In this document: positions 21,040-27,872 of the stretch, piece by piece
Numbering within the stretch: the stretch's first letter is position 1
Layout: each line of letters begins with the position of its first letter
NCBI GenBank assembly: GCA_903926465.1
Contig: CAIYJE010000008.1
Location: forward strand, 1 to 49,443
Length of the DNA stretch: 49,443 bases
Reading direction: 5' to 3'
DNA from: an uncultured Planctomycetales bacterium
GTDB taxonomy: Bacteria > Planctomycetota > Planctomycetia > Isosphaerales > Isosphaeraceae
The notes under the pieces: model-generated
Databases searched by the model: none
What the model was told of the DNA's origin: nothing
The model's input: only the letters and a program-made list of their open reading frames with translations
Program-made: the position numbers and the translations under genes

Positions 21040-22107
21040 TTATTCCAGCGTGCGAATTTCGACTTCGGACCAAAGGCTTGCCAGTTCGGCAGCCAGGTAG
21101 GCAGGAAGGGGAGCCTGGTGGGCCCGGCTGGCAGCAAACCAGCGGGCGAGTTCGGAGGCTTTCACAACCCGTAGCCCGGCGCGTTCGGCAGACTGGCAGA
21201 GCATCCTGGCGGCCGTACCCCGGGCGATGGTTCGCACGCTCACCTGGCCAGGCGGCGGAGCACCGCCCAGCAAGATGGCCATTCCTCCCGCGTCCGTCAC
21301 CACCAAGCTGGCCCCAGCCAGGATTTCGGCGGGATCTTGCCGCCAGCTTCTGGCGGTCTGTTGCCGGCGAGAGCGGATGGCCGGGTCGCCGTCGATCTCT
21401 TTCTGTTCTTCGCGTTGCTGGTCGGGGGTGAGCCTGAGATGCTCTTCAAAACGCCGGAATCGTAGGGCGTAATCCACCAGGCCCACAACAACCCCGGTCA
21501 CGGCCAGCGGCATGCCCACGGTGCGCACCAGTGCAGAGGTGGCCATGAGCAGAGCGGGCAACTCAAGCCAGCCCAGGGTCTCAAGTGCGGGGAACTGGGT
21601 GATCAGGAGCCAGGCGGCAATTGTGATCAGGATTCCCAGTTTGACCAGGGCACCCAGGCCATGGATGAACGGTTCGGCCAGGTTCTGTTCTTCGTCGGAA
21701 TCGGACCCCAGTTTCCAGAGCCGCCCCAGGTCGGGGGTCAGGCGAGCGGGTGCCCAGAGTCCGCCGGTTTGTGCCTGATGCACGGCAATCATGGCGACCA
21801 GCGTTCCCAGCAAAATGGAGCCCAGCGGCATGGCGACCAAGACCGCGCACCGCTGGAACCGGTTGGTGATGTGCGCAGGGTCGATTTCTTGAGAGAGAAA
21901 CTCGGCCTGTGAGGCCGGTGCCGTAAGCCCCTCGGAAATCACCAGGCGGAGTGAACTGCCCAGTTCGCCGCCCCAGGCTCCCAACAGCACGAAGGCGGCG
22001 AGCAGCCCGGCTGCCGCCGTAAGTTCCGGGCTGTGCGGCGCATGGCCGGCATCACGCGCCTGCTGGCGACGTAACCGCGACGGTGCCTGGGTTCGTTCGG
22101 CCGACAT
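21040..22107 (-). CDS. flhB: FlhB-like flagellar export switch protein lacking the NPTH motif
   Basis: FlhB controls substrate switching in the flagellar type III export gate. This 355-residue protein has the family start (TQAPSRLRRQQARDAGHAPH, cf. the usual 'TPKRLxKAREEGQV'), four hydrophobic segments, the ELTAAAGLLAAF helix, and a C-terminal domain entered through DGDPAIRSRRQQ. Where the autocleavage motif NPTH is expected (about residues 269-272 in Salmonella), it reads VVTDAGGMAILL, with DAGG at 272-275. Asn and Pro, which perform self-cleavage, are both gone, so the protein should not autoprocess. The rest of the C-terminal domain (SVRTIARG, then AERAGLRVVKASELAR) remains recognisable. 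It is the last gene of the fliF-to-flhB operon, 39 bases after fliR. Confidence 0.87.
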   Translation of the reverse strand: MSAERTQAPSRLRRQQARDAGHAPHSPELTAAAGLLAAFVLLGAWGGELGSSLRLVISEGLTAPASQAEFLSQEIDPAHITNRFQRCAVLVAMPLGSILLGTLVAMIAVHQAQTGGLWAPARLTPDLGRLWKLGSDSDEEQNLAEPFIHGLGALVKLGILITIAAWLLITQFPALETLGWLELPALLMATSALVRTVGMPLAVTGVVVGLVDYALRFRRFEEHLRLTPDQQREEQKEIDGDPAIRSRRQQTARSWRQDPAEILAGASLVVTDAGGMAILLGGAPPPGQVSVRTIARGTAARMLCQSAERAGLRVVKASELARWFAASRAHQAPLPAYLAAELASLWSEVEIRTLE

Positions 22108-22146: not shown

Positions 22147-22995
22147 TCAAGAACCGCCCATCGAGACGGCCCAGCCGGTCCAGGCCGCAGCCAGAGTGGT
22201 GGCCAGCGTGGCAATCGAAAGCGCCGAAACAATCAGCCCCAGGGCAACGCGGACGGGCCAATCGAGCCCCGACATCGGCCGACCTGCCGCAGATCGAGAG
22301 ATCCAGGCCAGGGCCAGGCCAGAGAGCAGTAGCGCCACCCCGGCCGGCGCGGCGGCTTGCAGTGCCTGGGCCAGCGTGGCGGTCACGCGGGCGAAGAGGT
22401 CGTGGGTCAGGGCCAGTGGGCTGGAACTGTTCGTGTGCGTGGAGTACAAGCCGAACCCAGGCGGGGTGGAGGCGAAGCTGTGAACCAGCGCTCGCACCAT
22501 GACCAGAGGGCCGTCGAGTGTGAGAAACACGCCCATGGCCACCAGGCCATGCAGGTGTCCCAGCGGCGTCAGGCCGCCGGTTCCTCCCTCGTTCAGGTCA
22601 ATTGGTCCCAGGCCCCGGTCGGGCTCGATACCGAACAGGCTCGCGGGGGCCAAGCCGGCATGCTGAGCCACAATCTCGCCCGCCTGCCGTGCCCCGGCCA
22701 CCACCAGCGCGGCCGCAAGCCCCATGGCGGAACCAATGCCGAATTCGATGGCCAGCAACCCGATCCAGCCAGGCAGTTCACCGGGATTGGCCACGGGGGG
22801 AGCGATGGCGGCCACGCCAGGCGCAATGGCCGCCGTCAGGGCAATGGCCAGCACCAGTCGCACGTTATTGCTGATTCCGGCCAGACCCCAGTTCGGGGCC
22901 GTGATCACCAGGCCCAGCACGCGCGTGAGCACAATCACGAAGGTGACCGCCGTGGGGCCCAGAAAATCGAGATCGGGAAAGCCCAGCATGCTCAT
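22147..22995 (-). CDS. fliR: Flagellar export gate protein FliR
   Basis: A 282-residue integral membrane protein of the export gate, which forms the FliPQR core with FliP and FliQ. The N-terminus (FVIVLTRVLGLVITAPNWGL) matches the FliR 'f.lvl.R..gl...aP.fg' helix. Further blocks include EFGIGSAMGLAAALVVAGAR, the 'G.i' segment ARQAGEIVAQHAG and the loop NEGGTGGLTPLGHLHGLVAM, in which FliR proteins usually have 'l..l..l.f...ghh'. The length is slightly above the usual about 260 because of an insertion after the FGIEPD segment. The ATG at 22995 was chosen with a weak ribosome binding site. It lies 56 bases after fliQ and 39 before flhB. Confidence 0.88.
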   Translation of the reverse strand: MSMLGFPDLDFLGPTAVTFVIVLTRVLGLVITAPNWGLAGISNNVRLVLAIALTAAIAPGVAAIAPPVANPGELPGWIGLLAIEFGIGSAMGLAAALVVAGARQAGEIVAQHAGLAPASLFGIEPDRGLGPIDLNEGGTGGLTPLGHLHGLVAMGVFLTLDGPLVMVRALVHSFASTPPGFGLYSTHTNSSSPLALTHDLFARVTATLAQALQAAAPAGVALLLSGLALAWISRSAAGRPMSGLDWPVRVALGLIVSALSIATLATTLAAAWTGWAVSMGGS

Positions 22996-23051: not shown

Positions 23052-23312
23052 TCAACCGCCCAGCGTACTGATAAGTCCACGCGTGTAGCTGACCCAGGTC
23101 GCCAGCATCCAGGGCAGGGTGCCCAGCACCACCAGCAGTACAACCACCTGGCGAGGTACTTGCGCCAGCACCGGTTCATGCAACTGGGTCACGGTTTGTA
23201 CCAGGCTAATAAGCAGGGCTACGGCCACGGCCGCAGCCAGTGGGGGACCGCCCAGCAGAAGGGCCATCCGCAGGGCCTCACGTGACCAGTCGATCAGACG
23301 GCTCGCATCCAC
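23052..23312 (-). CDS. fliQ: Flagellar export gate protein FliQ
   Basis: An 86-residue protein with two transmembrane helices, the normal FliQ size. The start is a GTG at 23312 preceded by GGAAGGA; the longer in-frame ORF to 23495 would add a non-homologous tail running into fliP. The family pattern 'a.....al.......aP.l......g...sl.Qa.TqlnE.tL.f.pk' is seen as SREALRMALLLGGPPLAAAV, then SLVQTVTQLHEPVLAQVPRQ. Unusually, the generally conserved helix-1 'P' block is GGPP. It lies 136 bases after fliP, the largest gap in the operon. Confidence 0.9.
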   Translation of the reverse strand: MDASRLIDWSREALRMALLLGGPPLAAAVAVALLISLVQTVTQLHEPVLAQVPRQVVVLLVVLGTLPWMLATWVSYTRGLISTLGG

Positions 23313-23448: not shown

Positions 23449-24381
23449 TCAGGTGATGGACTGGGTTCCAAAGCTGCGGAGCAGCATGTCGGCAATCAGC
23501 ATCCAGCCATCGGCCAGTACAAACAGCGCGAGTTTGATCGGGAGCGCCACCAGCGTGGGCGGCATCAGGAACAGCCCCATGGCCGAGAGTACGGCCGAGA
23601 CCACCAGGTCTACCACCAGAAACGGCAAGAATACGGCGAACCCTAGATAGAGCGCGGTGGTCAGTTCGCTAATCAAGAACGCCGGTGCAATGACCTGGAG
23701 CGGGAACTCTTCGCAGGTCTTGGGTTCTGGCTGACTGTTGGATTCCGCCGTGTGGGCGTACAGTGACCAGAGGTAATTCTGGTGCCCGGTTCGGCAAATC
23801 TGTTCGATCATGAAGGCTTTGATCGGTTCAGACGTCTCAACCCAGGCCACTTGGGGGGTGACTTGCTTTTGCCAGAGCGGCATGAGTGCGCGTGTGTAAA
23901 CCCGCTGCCCCAGCGGAGCCATGACCAGCATGGTCAGCAGCAGTGCCAGTGCGGATAGTGCTTGGGTGCCTGGCACTTGCATGCTCCCGAGCGCCTGGCG
24001 AACCAGCATGAGCACCACGCTAATTCGTACGAAGGCCGTGAACGTGAGTACGGCGGCCGGCAGCAAAGACAGTAAACTGAACAGGGCAAAGCTCCCCACA
24101 CTTCTCATCAGGCTATCCGTCGACGGCATGCCTGGAGTGGATGTGGCGGCTGGGTCGGGAGTGGCGGAAGCCTGGGGCTTTTCCTCGCTCCTGTCATCGG
24201 TAGCCTGGGGCTCGGTTGCAGGCGGTTGGGTGCTGTTCCGAGGTGCAATTGGAACGGCGGCCCGGGCCATGCGTGTGGGAGGTGTGGGCTTTTCTCCTGC
24301 ACTCGCCGTGGGGTTGGTGCTGGAGAACAGGCCCACGAATAATAGAACGTAGAGCGGATAAGCCGGGTGTGATCGGTTCAT
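23449..24381 (-). CDS. fliP: Flagellar export gate protein FliP with a Pro/Thr-rich N-terminal extension
   Basis: FliP forms the export gate pore. The 310 residues include a signal sequence, about 65 residues of Pro/Thr/Ala/Gln-rich low-complexity sequence, then the FliP core. Core motifs: LPAAVLTFTAFVRISVVLML (typical 'lpal.lmmTsFtRiivVl..lR.alG'), RQALGSMQVPGTQAL, LLLTMLVMAP, SEPIKAFMIEQICR, VIAPAFLISELTTALYLGFA (usual 'lipaF..SELk.AF.iGF') and PFLVVDLVVSAVLSAMGLFL (usual 'PFLiiDmvvas.LmsmGm'). The Lys of SELK is Thr here. The start ATG at 24381 lies three bases after the fliO stop. Confidence 0.93.
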   Translation of the reverse strand: MNRSHPAYPLYVLLFVGLFSSTNPTASAGEKPTPPTRMARAAVPIAPRNSTQPPATEPQATDDRSEEKPQASATPDPAATSTPGMPSTDSLMRSVGSFALFSLLSLLPAAVLTFTAFVRISVVLMLVRQALGSMQVPGTQALSALALLLTMLVMAPLGQRVYTRALMPLWQKQVTPQVAWVETSEPIKAFMIEQICRTGHQNYLWSLYAHTAESNSQPEPKTCEEFPLQVIAPAFLISELTTALYLGFAVFLPFLVVDLVVSAVLSAMGLFLMPPTLVALPIKLALFVLADGWMLIADMLLRSFGTQSIT

Positions 24382-24384
24382 GGG

Positions 24385-24939
24385 TCAGACGCCTCCAGCC
24401 GTGGTGATGGGCCGGGGAAGAGGCTCGATTCGAACGGTGGCGGGAATGCGCTCGGTAAGCTTGACCGATTCTTGCGGACTGGGCTCGTCCAGCCAGTCAT
24501 CCAATTCGGTCAGGAGCGTGGGTGGACCCTGAGTTCCGGTGCCTACGAGCAAGGTGCGTGATCCCACGCGTACGGTGTAGATTGAGTGACGGCCACCGAG
24601 TGATTGGCGGCCGAGCACCTGAATGGCGTTGCCGTGTGTGGGCCGCGGCGTCTGGGGATAGCGGCGGATCACGAAGGCGTACAATCCCACGCCCGCCAGA
24701 ACAGCTCCAATTCCGAGTGTGCCGTAGCTCCAGCCGCTTACGGGTGCAGTCGTGGTTGCACCCGCCTGGCCTGGCCGCTGGATTGGATGAACCCTGCGCG
24801 TGCTGGTTGGGGCCGTTGGTCCGTCATCCTCCTGCGCCCTGGCCTGTGTGATCAGGGTGAGGGCCAGCAACAGCAACAGCAACAGCAACAGGAACAGCGG
24901 TTTTCTGGTGCGCAGCAATGCCAGCAGGTGGTGCTTCAT
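24385..24939 (-). CDS. fliO: FliO-like flagellar export chaperone
   Basis: FliO is a small membrane protein that assists FliP assembly. This 184-residue protein starts at an ATG after an AAGGA box. It has an exceptionally leucine-rich N-terminal signal or anchor (nine consecutive Leu), a low-complexity periplasmic linker, a transmembrane helix (TLGIGAVLAGVGLYAFVIRR) and the FliO cytoplasmic domain with NAIQVLGRQSLGGRHSIYTV then RVGSRTLLVGTG (usual 'i.vl....Lg.k..l.lv.vg.r.lLlG.t'). It lies directly upstream of fliP with a three-base gap, the classical gene order. Confidence 0.87.
   Translation of the reverse strand: MKHHLLALLRTRKPLFLLLLLLLLLALTLITQARAQEDDGPTAPTSTRRVHPIQRPGQAGATTTAPVSGWSYGTLGIGAVLAGVGLYAFVIRRYPQTPRPTHGNAIQVLGRQSLGGRHSIYTVRVGSRTLLVGTGTQGPPTLLTELDDWLDEPSPQESVKLTERIPATVRIEPLPRPITTAGGV
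24865..24894 (-). repeat. Hexanucleotide microsatellite in fliO coding the poly-Leu run
   Basis: Four exact CAGCAA units (plus-strand reading) plus one variant unit, encoding consecutive leucines in the FliO signal sequence. The unit is a multiple of three, so copy-number change alters helix length without shifting the frame. Confidence 0.85.
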
Positions 24940-24993: not shown

Positions 24994-25320
24994 TCAGGCC
25001 ACCATGTCCAGGATGTCTTCCGGATGATCGAAGGCAATCTGGCCGTGGCGTGCGAGCCGGCAGAGGACCTCGACCACGGTCTCTCGGGCTGCCAGCACGA
25101 ACTCGGCGGAAAGGGGTTCCGCCGAGGGCTGGCTGAAGTAGCTATCAATGGCTCGGGCGGTGGCTTGTGGAAGCCGGTTCAGCAACCTGCGCCTGAGGTT
25201 GGCATCCAGGCCCACGAATGCGGCTGCAACCTGGCCAAAGTCAACCAGAGCGAGCACAGCGCGCAGGTCGGGCGTATCCAGCTGGTCCAGGTCATCAATA
25301 ACCACGAGGTTCTCAGACAA
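24994..25320 (-). CDS. Second FliG C-terminal-domain-like protein
   Basis: A 108-residue protein that resembles an isolated FliG_C domain: NLVVIDDLDQLDTPDLRAVL (cf. 'FVFEDIv.lDdraiq.lLre'), VDFGQVAAAFVGLDANLRRR (cf. 'v....lalAlkgas.elr.k'), LLNRLPQATARAIDSYFSQP and a final AARETVVEVLCRLARHGQI (cf. 'eaq..iv.i.r.Le..G.i'). The start is a TTG at 25320, chosen because a perfect AGGAGGAG box sits five bases upstream and because it overlaps the end of fliG by eight bases, indicating coupling. It lacks any FliG_N or middle domain. It may supply a separate torque or stator-facing ring component, or be a divergent switch paralogue. Confidence 0.7.
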   Translation of the reverse strand: MSENLVVIDDLDQLDTPDLRAVLALVDFGQVAAAFVGLDANLRRRLLNRLPQATARAIDSYFSQPSAEPLSAEFVLAARETVVEVLCRLARHGQIAFDHPEDILDMVA

Positions 25321-25900
25321 GGATCTCCTCCTGACTGCTGGACTCTGGAAGGGCGAGCAAACCTTCGTCGTGAAGCCGTCGAAGTCGGTCGGCAATCTCG
25401 GCCTGGGCCGACTCTACATGCTCAAGCCGGAACGGGCCCAGGTTTGCGAGTGCCTGCTGTAAGGTTTCGGAGGCGGGGGCGGCCAGTGCGGCTAGCACCT
25501 TCTGGCGCACGGGGCGCGATGCGCCGGCCAGGGCCAGAGCCCACACGCTCACTTCCTCTTCGCGGAAAGCCAGGCAGAGGTCCGGGTCATCCATGCGTAC
25601 CACGTCGTCAAAGACGAACCGGAGCCGCTTCATGCCAAGGGCATAGAATTCGGTGAGAACCTCGCGTTGCAGCTCGGGATCGATGTGTTCAAGCCGGGCC
25701 ATTTCCAGGCTGACGGCATCAACGTCGGCCCGATCCAGATGGGAAAGGATCTGGCGTGCCAGTGATTCCTCCAGGCTTACCACCAGGATGGCCGCCTTGC
25801 GGAGCGGGTCCAGGTTTAGCCGAGAGCGTCTGGTCTCCGTGCCCATCGAAGACGTTTCTGGGGCGGTGCGTGGGCGTGTTTCCAGGCCGATCGTCGTCAT
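25313..25900 (-). CDS. fliG: Short FliG lacking the middle domain
   Basis: FliG is the rotor protein that joins the MS ring (FliF) to the C ring (FliM) and contacts the stator. The ATG at 25900 overlaps the fliF stop (ATGA) and has GGAGG nine bases upstream. The protein has 195 residues instead of about 330. Residues 33-88 match FliG_N (LRKAAILVVSLEESLARQIL, then EHIDPELQREVLTEFYAL), and residues about 95-183 match FliG_C (FVFDDVVRMDDPDL, then ALAGASRPVRQKVLAALA, then NLGPFRLEHVESAQAEIADR). The FliG_M domain with its EHPQ(R) motif, which binds FliM, is completely absent, with GMKRLR as the join. A second FliG_C-like gene follows immediately. Confidence 0.87.
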   Translation of the reverse strand: MTTIGLETRPRTAPETSSMGTETRRSRLNLDPLRKAAILVVSLEESLARQILSHLDRADVDAVSLEMARLEHIDPELQREVLTEFYALGMKRLRFVFDDVVRMDDPDLCLAFREEEVSVWALALAGASRPVRQKVLAALAAPASETLQQALANLGPFRLEHVESAQAEIADRLRRLHDEGLLALPESSSQEEILV

Positions 25901-27432
25901 CGGATATGACCTCCCTGCGCGATCCAGCGGTGCAGAACGCCGGCCGCTGCGCCGGGGTCGAGGCGAATCAGTTCACGAACGCGTTCGGTGGCGGTGGTGG
26001 TGGTAACCGTGGCCTGGGGGGCCGACTTTTGCCGCCGCCCGGCTGATGGATCCGGGCCAAGCCAGGGGCGTCTCAGGGCTAGCCAGCCACCACCCAGCAA
26101 CAGCAGGACGGCTGCGGCAAGGGCCAGGCCGCCCACAACGGGGAGCCAGCTTGGATTCCCTTTCCGGGGCGTCAGGCCGTTCATGCCGGCAAGCTGTCCA
26201 GACTCCAGGTCATCAATTCTCACGATGTTGAGCGCGGCCATCTCTTGCGACGGGATGATGGCGTTGACCACCGTCTGAATGGTTTCACGCACCCGGACCG
26301 CAAAGGGGGCCAGATCATCGGGGGTAGGTGCCTGCGTGGGATGGATGGCCTGGAACAGCTTGAGGTAATGACTGCGTGGAACCTGAACCAGCACGTAGGC
26401 TTGCCTAGGCAGTTCGCTGAATCGGTGATTGACGTGGCTGTTGCCAGTTCCTGCGTTTGAGGCTGGATGCGTGGCGTTTGCGAGCAGCCTGGGCGTTGAA
26501 TCTTCGGCTGGGCGTGAGCTGGGTTCGTCGGTGACCACGGGGCGGTTCACGCCGATGCGGTTAGGCGGAGCGATGGCGGGGGCTTCGTCGTCATGGGCCT
26601 GGAGCGGACTGGCCTGATCAATACGAACGTAGACCAGGGCGCCATCAATCCGGAGCTGATTCAGGATTTTCTCACGGAGTTCTTCCTCACGCACCCGGAC
26701 GGTGGAACGGGCTTCCACGTCGGGCCGGCCGGCCACTCGATAGTCTCGGCCATTGGTGGGGTCAATGACCGTGATGGCATCCGGATCAACCGCATCAATG
26801 TTCGTCAAAACGTGGCAGATTCGGTCGATGGTGCTGTGTGAGAGCGGCTGATCGTCTTCGGTCTGGATCAGGGCGGTGGCTTTGAGCGAGCGCACGGAAC
26901 TCAGGCGATTGGTGGGTGCCACGGGGGTAAGGATGATCGTTGCCGAGACCACGCCTCGGAATCTGGCGATCACCTCACGGGCAATTTTTTCCTTGCCGCG
27001 CAGGTCGCGTTTGTCCCGGTCGTCGGGCAGTTCCCACATGGAGCCGGCGGTGGCTCGATCGTCCAGTAGGTCGTCGAGCGGGCGTGGGCCGATGTGGCCC
27101 CGGCCCAGAACTTCAAGGGCTTCCGCCCGTTTGGCGGCTGCCACGCCCAGCTTGCCACCGGTTTCCACACAGGGAATGTCGGCCGCCTTGAGCGCGGAGA
27201 TAATTTTAGCGCTTTCGGTGCGCGAGAAGACTCGACCGTCATAGAGCCATTCCGTGTTGGCGGGCTCTGAGCCGGTGAAAAAACTGGCCGCGGTGGCCAG
27301 CAAAACCACGGCAATAAGTCCACCAATCGCCCAGCGTGCCCGTGGTCCAGCTTGGCCAAGCCAAGCGCCCAGGCGCTCATGCGCTGATCGAAGCTGTTCT
27401 GTCGCAAATTGTTGCGCGTCGTCCGCTCGCAT
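25897..27432 (-). CDS. fliF: Flagellar MS-ring protein FliF
   Basis: FliF builds the MS ring in the inner membrane around the export gate. From the ATG at 27432 (MRADDAQQF; a GAGGGG box lies eight bases upstream) the product is about 511 residues; an upstream in-frame ATG (27468) and GTG (27495) are alternatives. There is an N-terminal transmembrane helix (WAIGGLIAVVLLATAASFFT), a YscJ/FliF ring-building segment (EWLYDGRVFSRTESAKIISA, then LKAADIPCVE), a second helix near the C-terminus (LPVVGGLALAAAVLLLLGGG), and a cytoplasmic tail ending VRELIRLDPGAAAGVLHRWI, the FliG_N-binding element. The periplasmic part is somewhat divergent. It heads the fliF-fliG-FliG_C-fliOPQR-flhB operon. Confidence 0.9.
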   Translation of the reverse strand: MRADDAQQFATEQLRSAHERLGAWLGQAGPRARWAIGGLIAVVLLATAASFFTGSEPANTEWLYDGRVFSRTESAKIISALKAADIPCVETGGKLGVAAAKRAEALEVLGRGHIGPRPLDDLLDDRATAGSMWELPDDRDKRDLRGKEKIAREVIARFRGVVSATIILTPVAPTNRLSSVRSLKATALIQTEDDQPLSHSTIDRICHVLTNIDAVDPDAITVIDPTNGRDYRVAGRPDVEARSTVRVREEELREKILNQLRIDGALVYVRIDQASPLQAHDDEAPAIAPPNRIGVNRPVVTDEPSSRPAEDSTPRLLANATHPASNAGTGNSHVNHRFSELPRQAYVLVQVPRSHYLKLFQAIHPTQAPTPDDLAPFAVRVRETIQTVVNAIIPSQEMAALNIVRIDDLESGQLAGMNGLTPRKGNPSWLPVVGGLALAAAVLLLLGGGWLALRRPWLGPDPSAGRRQKSAPQATVTTTTATERVRELIRLDPGAAAGVLHRWIAQGGHIR

Positions 27433-27872
27433 CCCTGCGTCCCCTCGCGCTGACGGTAAAAACCGCATCTTGCGGTCTTTAGGTGTGTTATCCACAAATG
27501 GCCGATATTGTCAATTCGAGCCGGTGCAAAGGAGCGGTGATGAGCTTCACGGGTCGGGAGCCTGCTTGGTTGGCTCCAGGCCACCTGTCTGTTCGCCTGA
27601 GATCAATATTTGCAGGAAGCTCGACACTGGGGGTTTGGATTCGCAAAAACACAGTAGGGCAGCCTTAGGTGTTCTCGGATCGGGTCTCCTGAGGAAACCG
27701 GCCTTGTCAGACTGCCCCGAACCGGGCAGGATTCGCGAACCTGCCTGCTTTGCATCCCTTTTGAACTGCCTGATCTATCCCGCGAATTCCTGAATTATAG
27801 GCGTCGTTTGGGCGCGAAACTCTGGAATTCTCGATCCTATCGGACGGGCGGAGAGCCCAGGGGCGTTCCGTG
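27433..27872. other. Divergent promoter region between the fliF operon and the lipoprotein gene
   Basis: About 440 bases between divergently transcribed units. No gene was seen; promoters for both sides should lie here but I could not assign boxes reliably. Confidence 0.4.

Follow-up and report, generated by a model that had tools for sequence, protein, structure and literature searches.

A shortened FliG and a second FliG_C-like gene in a flagellar-type gene cluster of Isosphaeraceae

In the flagellar rotor, FliG_N co-folds with the tail of FliF, FliM is contacted through the EHPQR motif of FliG_M, and the main determinant of the rotor-stator interaction is a set of charged residues on one helix of FliG_C (PMC7355467). 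What can a FliG do that consists of its two end domains only? Such a protein is encoded in the window (the whole stretch of 49,443 nucleotides analysed here) from an uncultured member of the Isosphaeraceae, together with FliF, a second FliG_C-like protein and components of the flagellar export gate. A sequence-only reading had concluded that the C ring here needs another mode of assembly, or else that the apparatus serves for export and is no rotating motor. The source genome (6.9 Mb, 99.66% complete, 2.95% contaminated) was assembled as a draft in 207 contigs, and absences reported for it are accordingly not absolute.

Short FliG and its companion gene

The fliG gene (25313 to 25900, minus strand, as for all features of the window) encodes 195 amino acids, in which a partial FliG_N is joined directly to FliG_C. 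This architecture, already proposed from the letters alone, was borne out by profile searches: residues 30 to 88 match positions 2 to 60 (of 104) of the FliG_N profile (PF14842, E 2.5e-16), and residues 87 to 183 match FliG_C (PF01706, E 3.4e-21). On the DNA, the FliG_N part (residues 30 to 90) extends over 25631 to 25813, the FliG_C part (residues 91 to 184) over 25349 to 25630 and the join GMKRL (residues 89 to 93) over 25622 to 25636; a variable N-terminal extension lies ahead of the FliG_N part. The sole match to FliG_M in the protein (17.8 bits, cut-off 25) overlies the FliG_N match, and FliG_M with its EHPQ motif is absent from the window gene as well as from the alignment of 18 loci. 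The profile alignment of the short FliG with full-length FliG of the same class (hhalign, E 1.7e-32) runs end-to-end with one internal gap, which stretches between the helix that ends in EFY and the RL-FVF hinge. The deletion of approximately 145 residues therefore comprises the end of FliG_N, FliG_M with EHPQ and the ARM_C part; the absence of FliG_M noted earlier stands, but the loss is wider than had been claimed.

The FliG_N part matches Thermotoga FliGn in complex with FliF (5tdy) in sequence (E 2.3e-14) and, in the AlphaFold model, in fold (1.1 Å over approximately 62 columns), while the FliG_C part of the model matches the solved structures 1qc7 and 8ucs at 1.6 to 2.3 Å. The mean pLDDT of the model is 83, but at a pTM of 0.61 it is no reliable guide to how the two halves are placed relative to each other. 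The charges that meet the stator are lost: the position of K264 (E. coli numbering) is occupied by A, G or V in all 18 short forms, R281 is retained in two of the 18 and the acidic pair D288/D289 is not retained. None of the four equivalents is present in the FliG_C part of the window.

The MS-ring protein FliF is encoded directly upstream (25897 to 27495; PF01514, 27.4 bits). Its C-terminal tail (approximately 25897 to 25985) bears the FliG_N-binding motif ERVRELIRLDPGAAAGVLHRWIAQG, kept in all 14 relatives inspected. Sequence and predicted fold thus both point to a FliG_N of the FliF-binding type. The loss of the FliF C-domain was uninformative as a clue, two flagellated relatives being likewise without a PF08345 match. 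A fusion of FliF and FliG, suspected from long open frames, was rejected: fliG overlaps fliF in a different frame in most loci, and in the single locus where both share a frame, a gap lies between the two genes. A small secreted-looking protein with the stretch YEWVLKKKRV is encoded near fliF in some relatives (e.g. L038:12238-12846:- and L044:14486-15097:-, the stretch being common to both). Its cluster is present in 11 of 21 loci (20 relatives and the window), and the protein could be merely syntenic.

The second gene (24994 to 25320) encodes a FliG_C-like domain only (108 amino acids; PF01706, 37.4 bits). Its TTG start (25318 to 25320) overlaps the fliG stop by 8 bases and is preceded by its own ribosome-binding site AGGAGGAG (25325 to 25332) within the 3' end of fliG; overlap, box and start codon were all located as the sequence-only reading had described them. 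Relatives share this arrangement of the start, with a GGAGG box separated by five or six bases from TTG-TCTGA, which identifies the gene as 24994 to 25320 and not as the longer open reading frame from 25395. The AlphaFold model of the product matches solved FliG_C (1qc7) at 1.8 Å (Foldseek).

The short FliG was found in all 18 aligned Isosphaeraceae loci, window included. A FliG_C match at E < 0.01 was obtained in 33 of 37 family genomes; the remaining four (three with no match, one doubtful) are 68 to 85% complete. The matches mostly start at profile position 13 to 15 (approximately), which sets them apart from the other families of the class, where FliG is mostly about 320 to 350 residues long. 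A pattern scan for the short form, whose reach is limited to close relatives, returned planctomycete records only and yielded 20 relatives, among them Singulisphaera acidiphila, Singulisphaera sp. GP187, Paludisphaera soli, Aquisphaera insulae and Tautonia sociabilis. In 18 of the 20, the junction (EF, a short linker, RL and the hinge FxF(E/D)D, searched as a regular expression) has identical spacing. A sequencing or assembly artefact inside fliG is ruled out, since the identical join occurs in many genera across the Isosphaeraceae, and the common junction and spacing point to one ancestral deletion. The second gene is less constant than the family-wide short fliG: it was called in 12 of 21 loci, window included, and in the others fliG is mostly followed too closely by the next gene, with a few gaps ambiguous. 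No full-length FliG is encoded elsewhere in the source genome, in which two FliG_C genes in total exceed the cut-off, both at this locus; the initial observation thus stands.

Retained gate and missing flagellar parts

The genes are arranged in the order fliF-fliG-(fliG_C2)-fliO-fliP-fliQ-fliR-flhB, which is kept, with intact frames, in many Isosphaeraceae genomes and genera. The gate set is complete: FliO (24385 to 24939; PF04347, 35 bits), FliP (23449 to 24381; PF00813, 196 bits), FliQ (23052 to 23312; PF01313, 73 bits; start assigned by codon score, the frame being open to 23495), FliR (22147 to 22995; PF01311, 105 bits) and FlhB (21040 to 22107; PF01312, 138 bits) are encoded at the locus and FlhA on another contig. 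This FlhA is of the flagellar type (746 bits with TIGR01398 versus 511 for SctV).

FlhB is cleaved at its N-P pair in the course of the substrate switch (PMC7064499). The FlhB of the window is without this autocleavage site, showing TDAGG where flagellated relatives show TNP followed by T/S/L and then H/E. Among the Isosphaeraceae FlhB aligned, from the window (21040 to 22107) and from L033 to L051 and L077 to L095, the site was lost in every one still having the cytoplasmic domain; it was kept in 20 of 20 flagellar FlhB examined from the class. Several Isosphaeraceae genera or relatives are missing the entire cytoplasmic domain. A small extra gene (a frame of approximately 90 to 150 residues) encoding the FlhB C-terminal domain only was observed in flagellated planctomycetes (G038, G039, G043, G044, G047, G048, G051 and G056).

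Several other flagellar components were not detected. Flagellin and MotB gave no match in the source genome and none over the cut-off across the 37 Isosphaeraceae genomes, FliE was found neither in the source genome nor in the family, and FliI did not exceed the cut-off in either. Rod proteins were not found in the source genome and gave matches in three draft genomes of the family only (G003, G016 and G024); the FlgB-type matches in G016 and G024 were set aside, as their contigs carry genes that by eye look foreign to the family. No family genome exceeded the cut-off of 379.5 for the SctN ATPase (TIGR01026), the best scores of approximately 220 to 237 bits being at the level of F1-type ATPases. 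Run on flagellated families of the class, the same searches do recover flagellin, MotB, FliE, rod proteins and FliI. Two further observations concern other families: in G054 (family f5), which is without rod, flagellin, MotB and FliE, a frame of 832 residues contains a FliG_C-like stretch, and FlhA, FliI and three SpoA proteins are also encoded, possibly another non-flagellar type III system. In G050, G052 and G055 (family f2) there is an additional FlhA, joined in the first two by a further, short FlhB that comes on top of the flagellar set; these genomes may have two type III systems.

No SpoA domain, as in FliM and FliN, was detected in the source genome at E 0.1, so that the search for fliM, fliN and motAB suggested at the outset ended with neither a SpoA domain nor a MotB match. 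Flagellated families of the class mostly have two to three SpoA proteins per genome. A single FliM/SctQ-like protein of approximately 400 residues was matched by profile in 28 of the 37 family genomes (e.g. L058:9895-11109:-, alignment A2); it has a C-terminal SpoA domain and a weak FliM match, and its best NCBIfam model is SctQ, below the cut-off of that model. In ten loci examined (L058, L059, L060, L061, L063 to L065, L069, L072 and L074), its gene is directly adjoined by one for a protein of approximately 300 residues (L058:11109-12035:-, alignment A1) with the motif IHPSWWxRALxxESPAVxR, whose sequence is not significantly matched in Pfam, NCBIfam or PDB (NCBIfam and PDB at chance level only). 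The idea that this neighbour is a relocated FliG_M, IHPSW resembling EHPQ, was unsupported (hhalign probability to FliG 0.4%). Neither protein was found in the genome of the window, nor in the near-complete, two-contig G019 or the single-contig G011. With no FliM, FliN or SctQ-like partner found, no C ring can be built from the known parts detected in the source genome. A C ring assembled differently, as first suggested, thus finds no partner in this genome and is conceivable in relatives, in most of which the single FliM/SctQ-like protein could attach some other way.

Proposed role and alternative explanations

Since filament, stator, rod and ATPase are lost and FliG is cut to its end domains, the locus cannot encode a swimming motor; the apparatus remaining in the Isosphaeraceae is probably a stripped-down membrane complex or a protein exporter. 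With moderate confidence, and as judged from sequence, we favour an MS ring and export gate derived from the flagellum, without ATPase or rod, which would be kept for a role other than motility. Of the earlier alternative of an export device instead of a rotating motor, the part that denies a motor is favoured by the absence of MotB, flagellin, FliE, rod, FliI and FliM/FliN and by the loss of the torque charges and of the FlhB site, whereas export itself is what we infer.

In the proposed complex, the FliF ring in the inner membrane would encircle the FliPQR-FlhB gate with FlhA, FliO acting as assembly factor. The short FliG would cap the ring on the cytoplasmic side, its FliG_N half co-folding with the C-terminal tail of FliF and its FliG_C half, which follows with no middle domains in between, presumably forming a compact collar. 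The extra FliG_C protein, translationally coupled to fliG, would probably add a second copy of FliG_C to this collar. As there is no stator, no torque charge and no FliM-binding domain, the collar could neither rotate nor switch; it may instead keep the ring joined to the FlhA/FlhB gate and dock the single SctQ-like protein in those relatives that have one. A flagellar gate is able to export without its ATPase, driven by ion motive force, and the gate proposed here would run in the same way if it exports. With the switch site of FlhB gone, it is proposed to serve one substrate class. Two points count against this explanation: with FliE and the rod absent, no path beyond the inner membrane is visible, and the losses of the FlhB domain and of the second FliG_C gene in relatives could reflect slow decay.

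That the genes are slowly decaying, functionless leftovers of a lost flagellum is rather unlikely, even though described Isosphaeraceae are poor in flagellar genes and have no motile swarmer cells (PMC5352709) and the losses just mentioned affect several lineages. The ordered cluster with its intact frames in many genera, the approximately 60% identity of the FliG_N part across genera and the conserved, coupled TTG start all speak against it. In addition, dN/dS of fliG was within 0.10 to 0.29 in three pairs (0.17, 0.11 and 0.29) and dN of the second gene was 0.000 at a dS of 0.199 (one pair), values that, for this small sample, support purifying selection on both genes in the pairs tested and argue against free decay.

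It is also unlikely that FliOPQR-FlhBA, with FliF and FliG as anchor, serves as a membrane platform for nanotubes or a hat-shaped inner-membrane particle and not as an exporter. Every gene of this core set (CORE) is present, a hat-shaped particle linked with flagellar export occurs widely (PMC9380563) and the export apparatus has been suggested to act at nanotubes (PMC7064499). However, nanotubes have also been regarded as signs of dying cells (PMC7532143), and the hat of Helicobacter pylori persists without FliF and without FliG (PMC9380563), so that a hat would leave the retention of these two proteins unexplained.

A repurposing for another motility or pilus system, as in the flagellum-less Lysobacter enzymogenes, is very improbable. 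Isosphaera pallida glides. The species is also described as phototactic (PMC3072084), and FlhA, FlhB, FliR and FliI affect twitching in L. enzymogenes (PMC7277350); the pilin effect in the latter needs FliI, however (PMC7277350), which was not found here. A functional, divergent rotating motor with parts too diverged for detection is hardly credible, for although FliG_C, the domain that contacts the stator of an ordinary motor, has been retained and is the part that matches solved FliG most strongly, its stator-facing charges are lost and several structural classes are jointly missing in all or nearly all of the 37 family genomes, yet found in flagellated families.

Comparison with known systems

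Compared to canonical FliG (PF14842-PF14841-PF01706), the short FliG shares the position after fliF, the FliG_C fold and, as far as the sequence indicates, a FliG_N of FliF-binding type; it differs in the lack of FliG_M/EHPQ, the end of FliG_N, ARM_C and the torque charges. The favoured MS ring and gate complex has all six proteins of the flagellar export gate or CORE (FliOPQR-FlhAB), including an FlhA of flagellar type, whereas FliI, FliE and the rod were not found and FlhB is without the N-P site. As in L. enzymogenes, export genes have outlasted the flagellum; that organism keeps FliI, however, and no rebuilt FliG is reported in the available text of PMC7277350. No description of a FliG without middle domain was found in the accessible text of the open-access literature on Isosphaera or planctomycetes, type III secretion and FliG. 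According to PMC12199754, 11% of non-motile species have a rotor protein and no filament protein, an acknowledged puzzle; the Isosphaeraceae fit this class, though a FliG without middle domain is not described in the available text of that study. In this family, the rotor protein was apparently rebuilt once and kept throughout, the parts for torque and switching being gone and the part that holds FliF staying.

The locus resembles the injectisome (NF-T3SS) in that a FliG_M-FliM linkage is missing and that, in most relatives, one SctQ-like protein replaces FliM and FliN. It differs from it by the presence of FliG and FliO, by the SctN ATPase not being found and by an FlhA nearer to the flagellar model. 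Tentatively, these genes may represent another lineage derived from the flagellar export machine, apart from flagella and injectisomes, in which an MS ring and gate without ATPase, rod and substrate switch would serve a function in the cell envelope and a collar of rebuilt FliG, encoded here by two genes, would replace the C ring.
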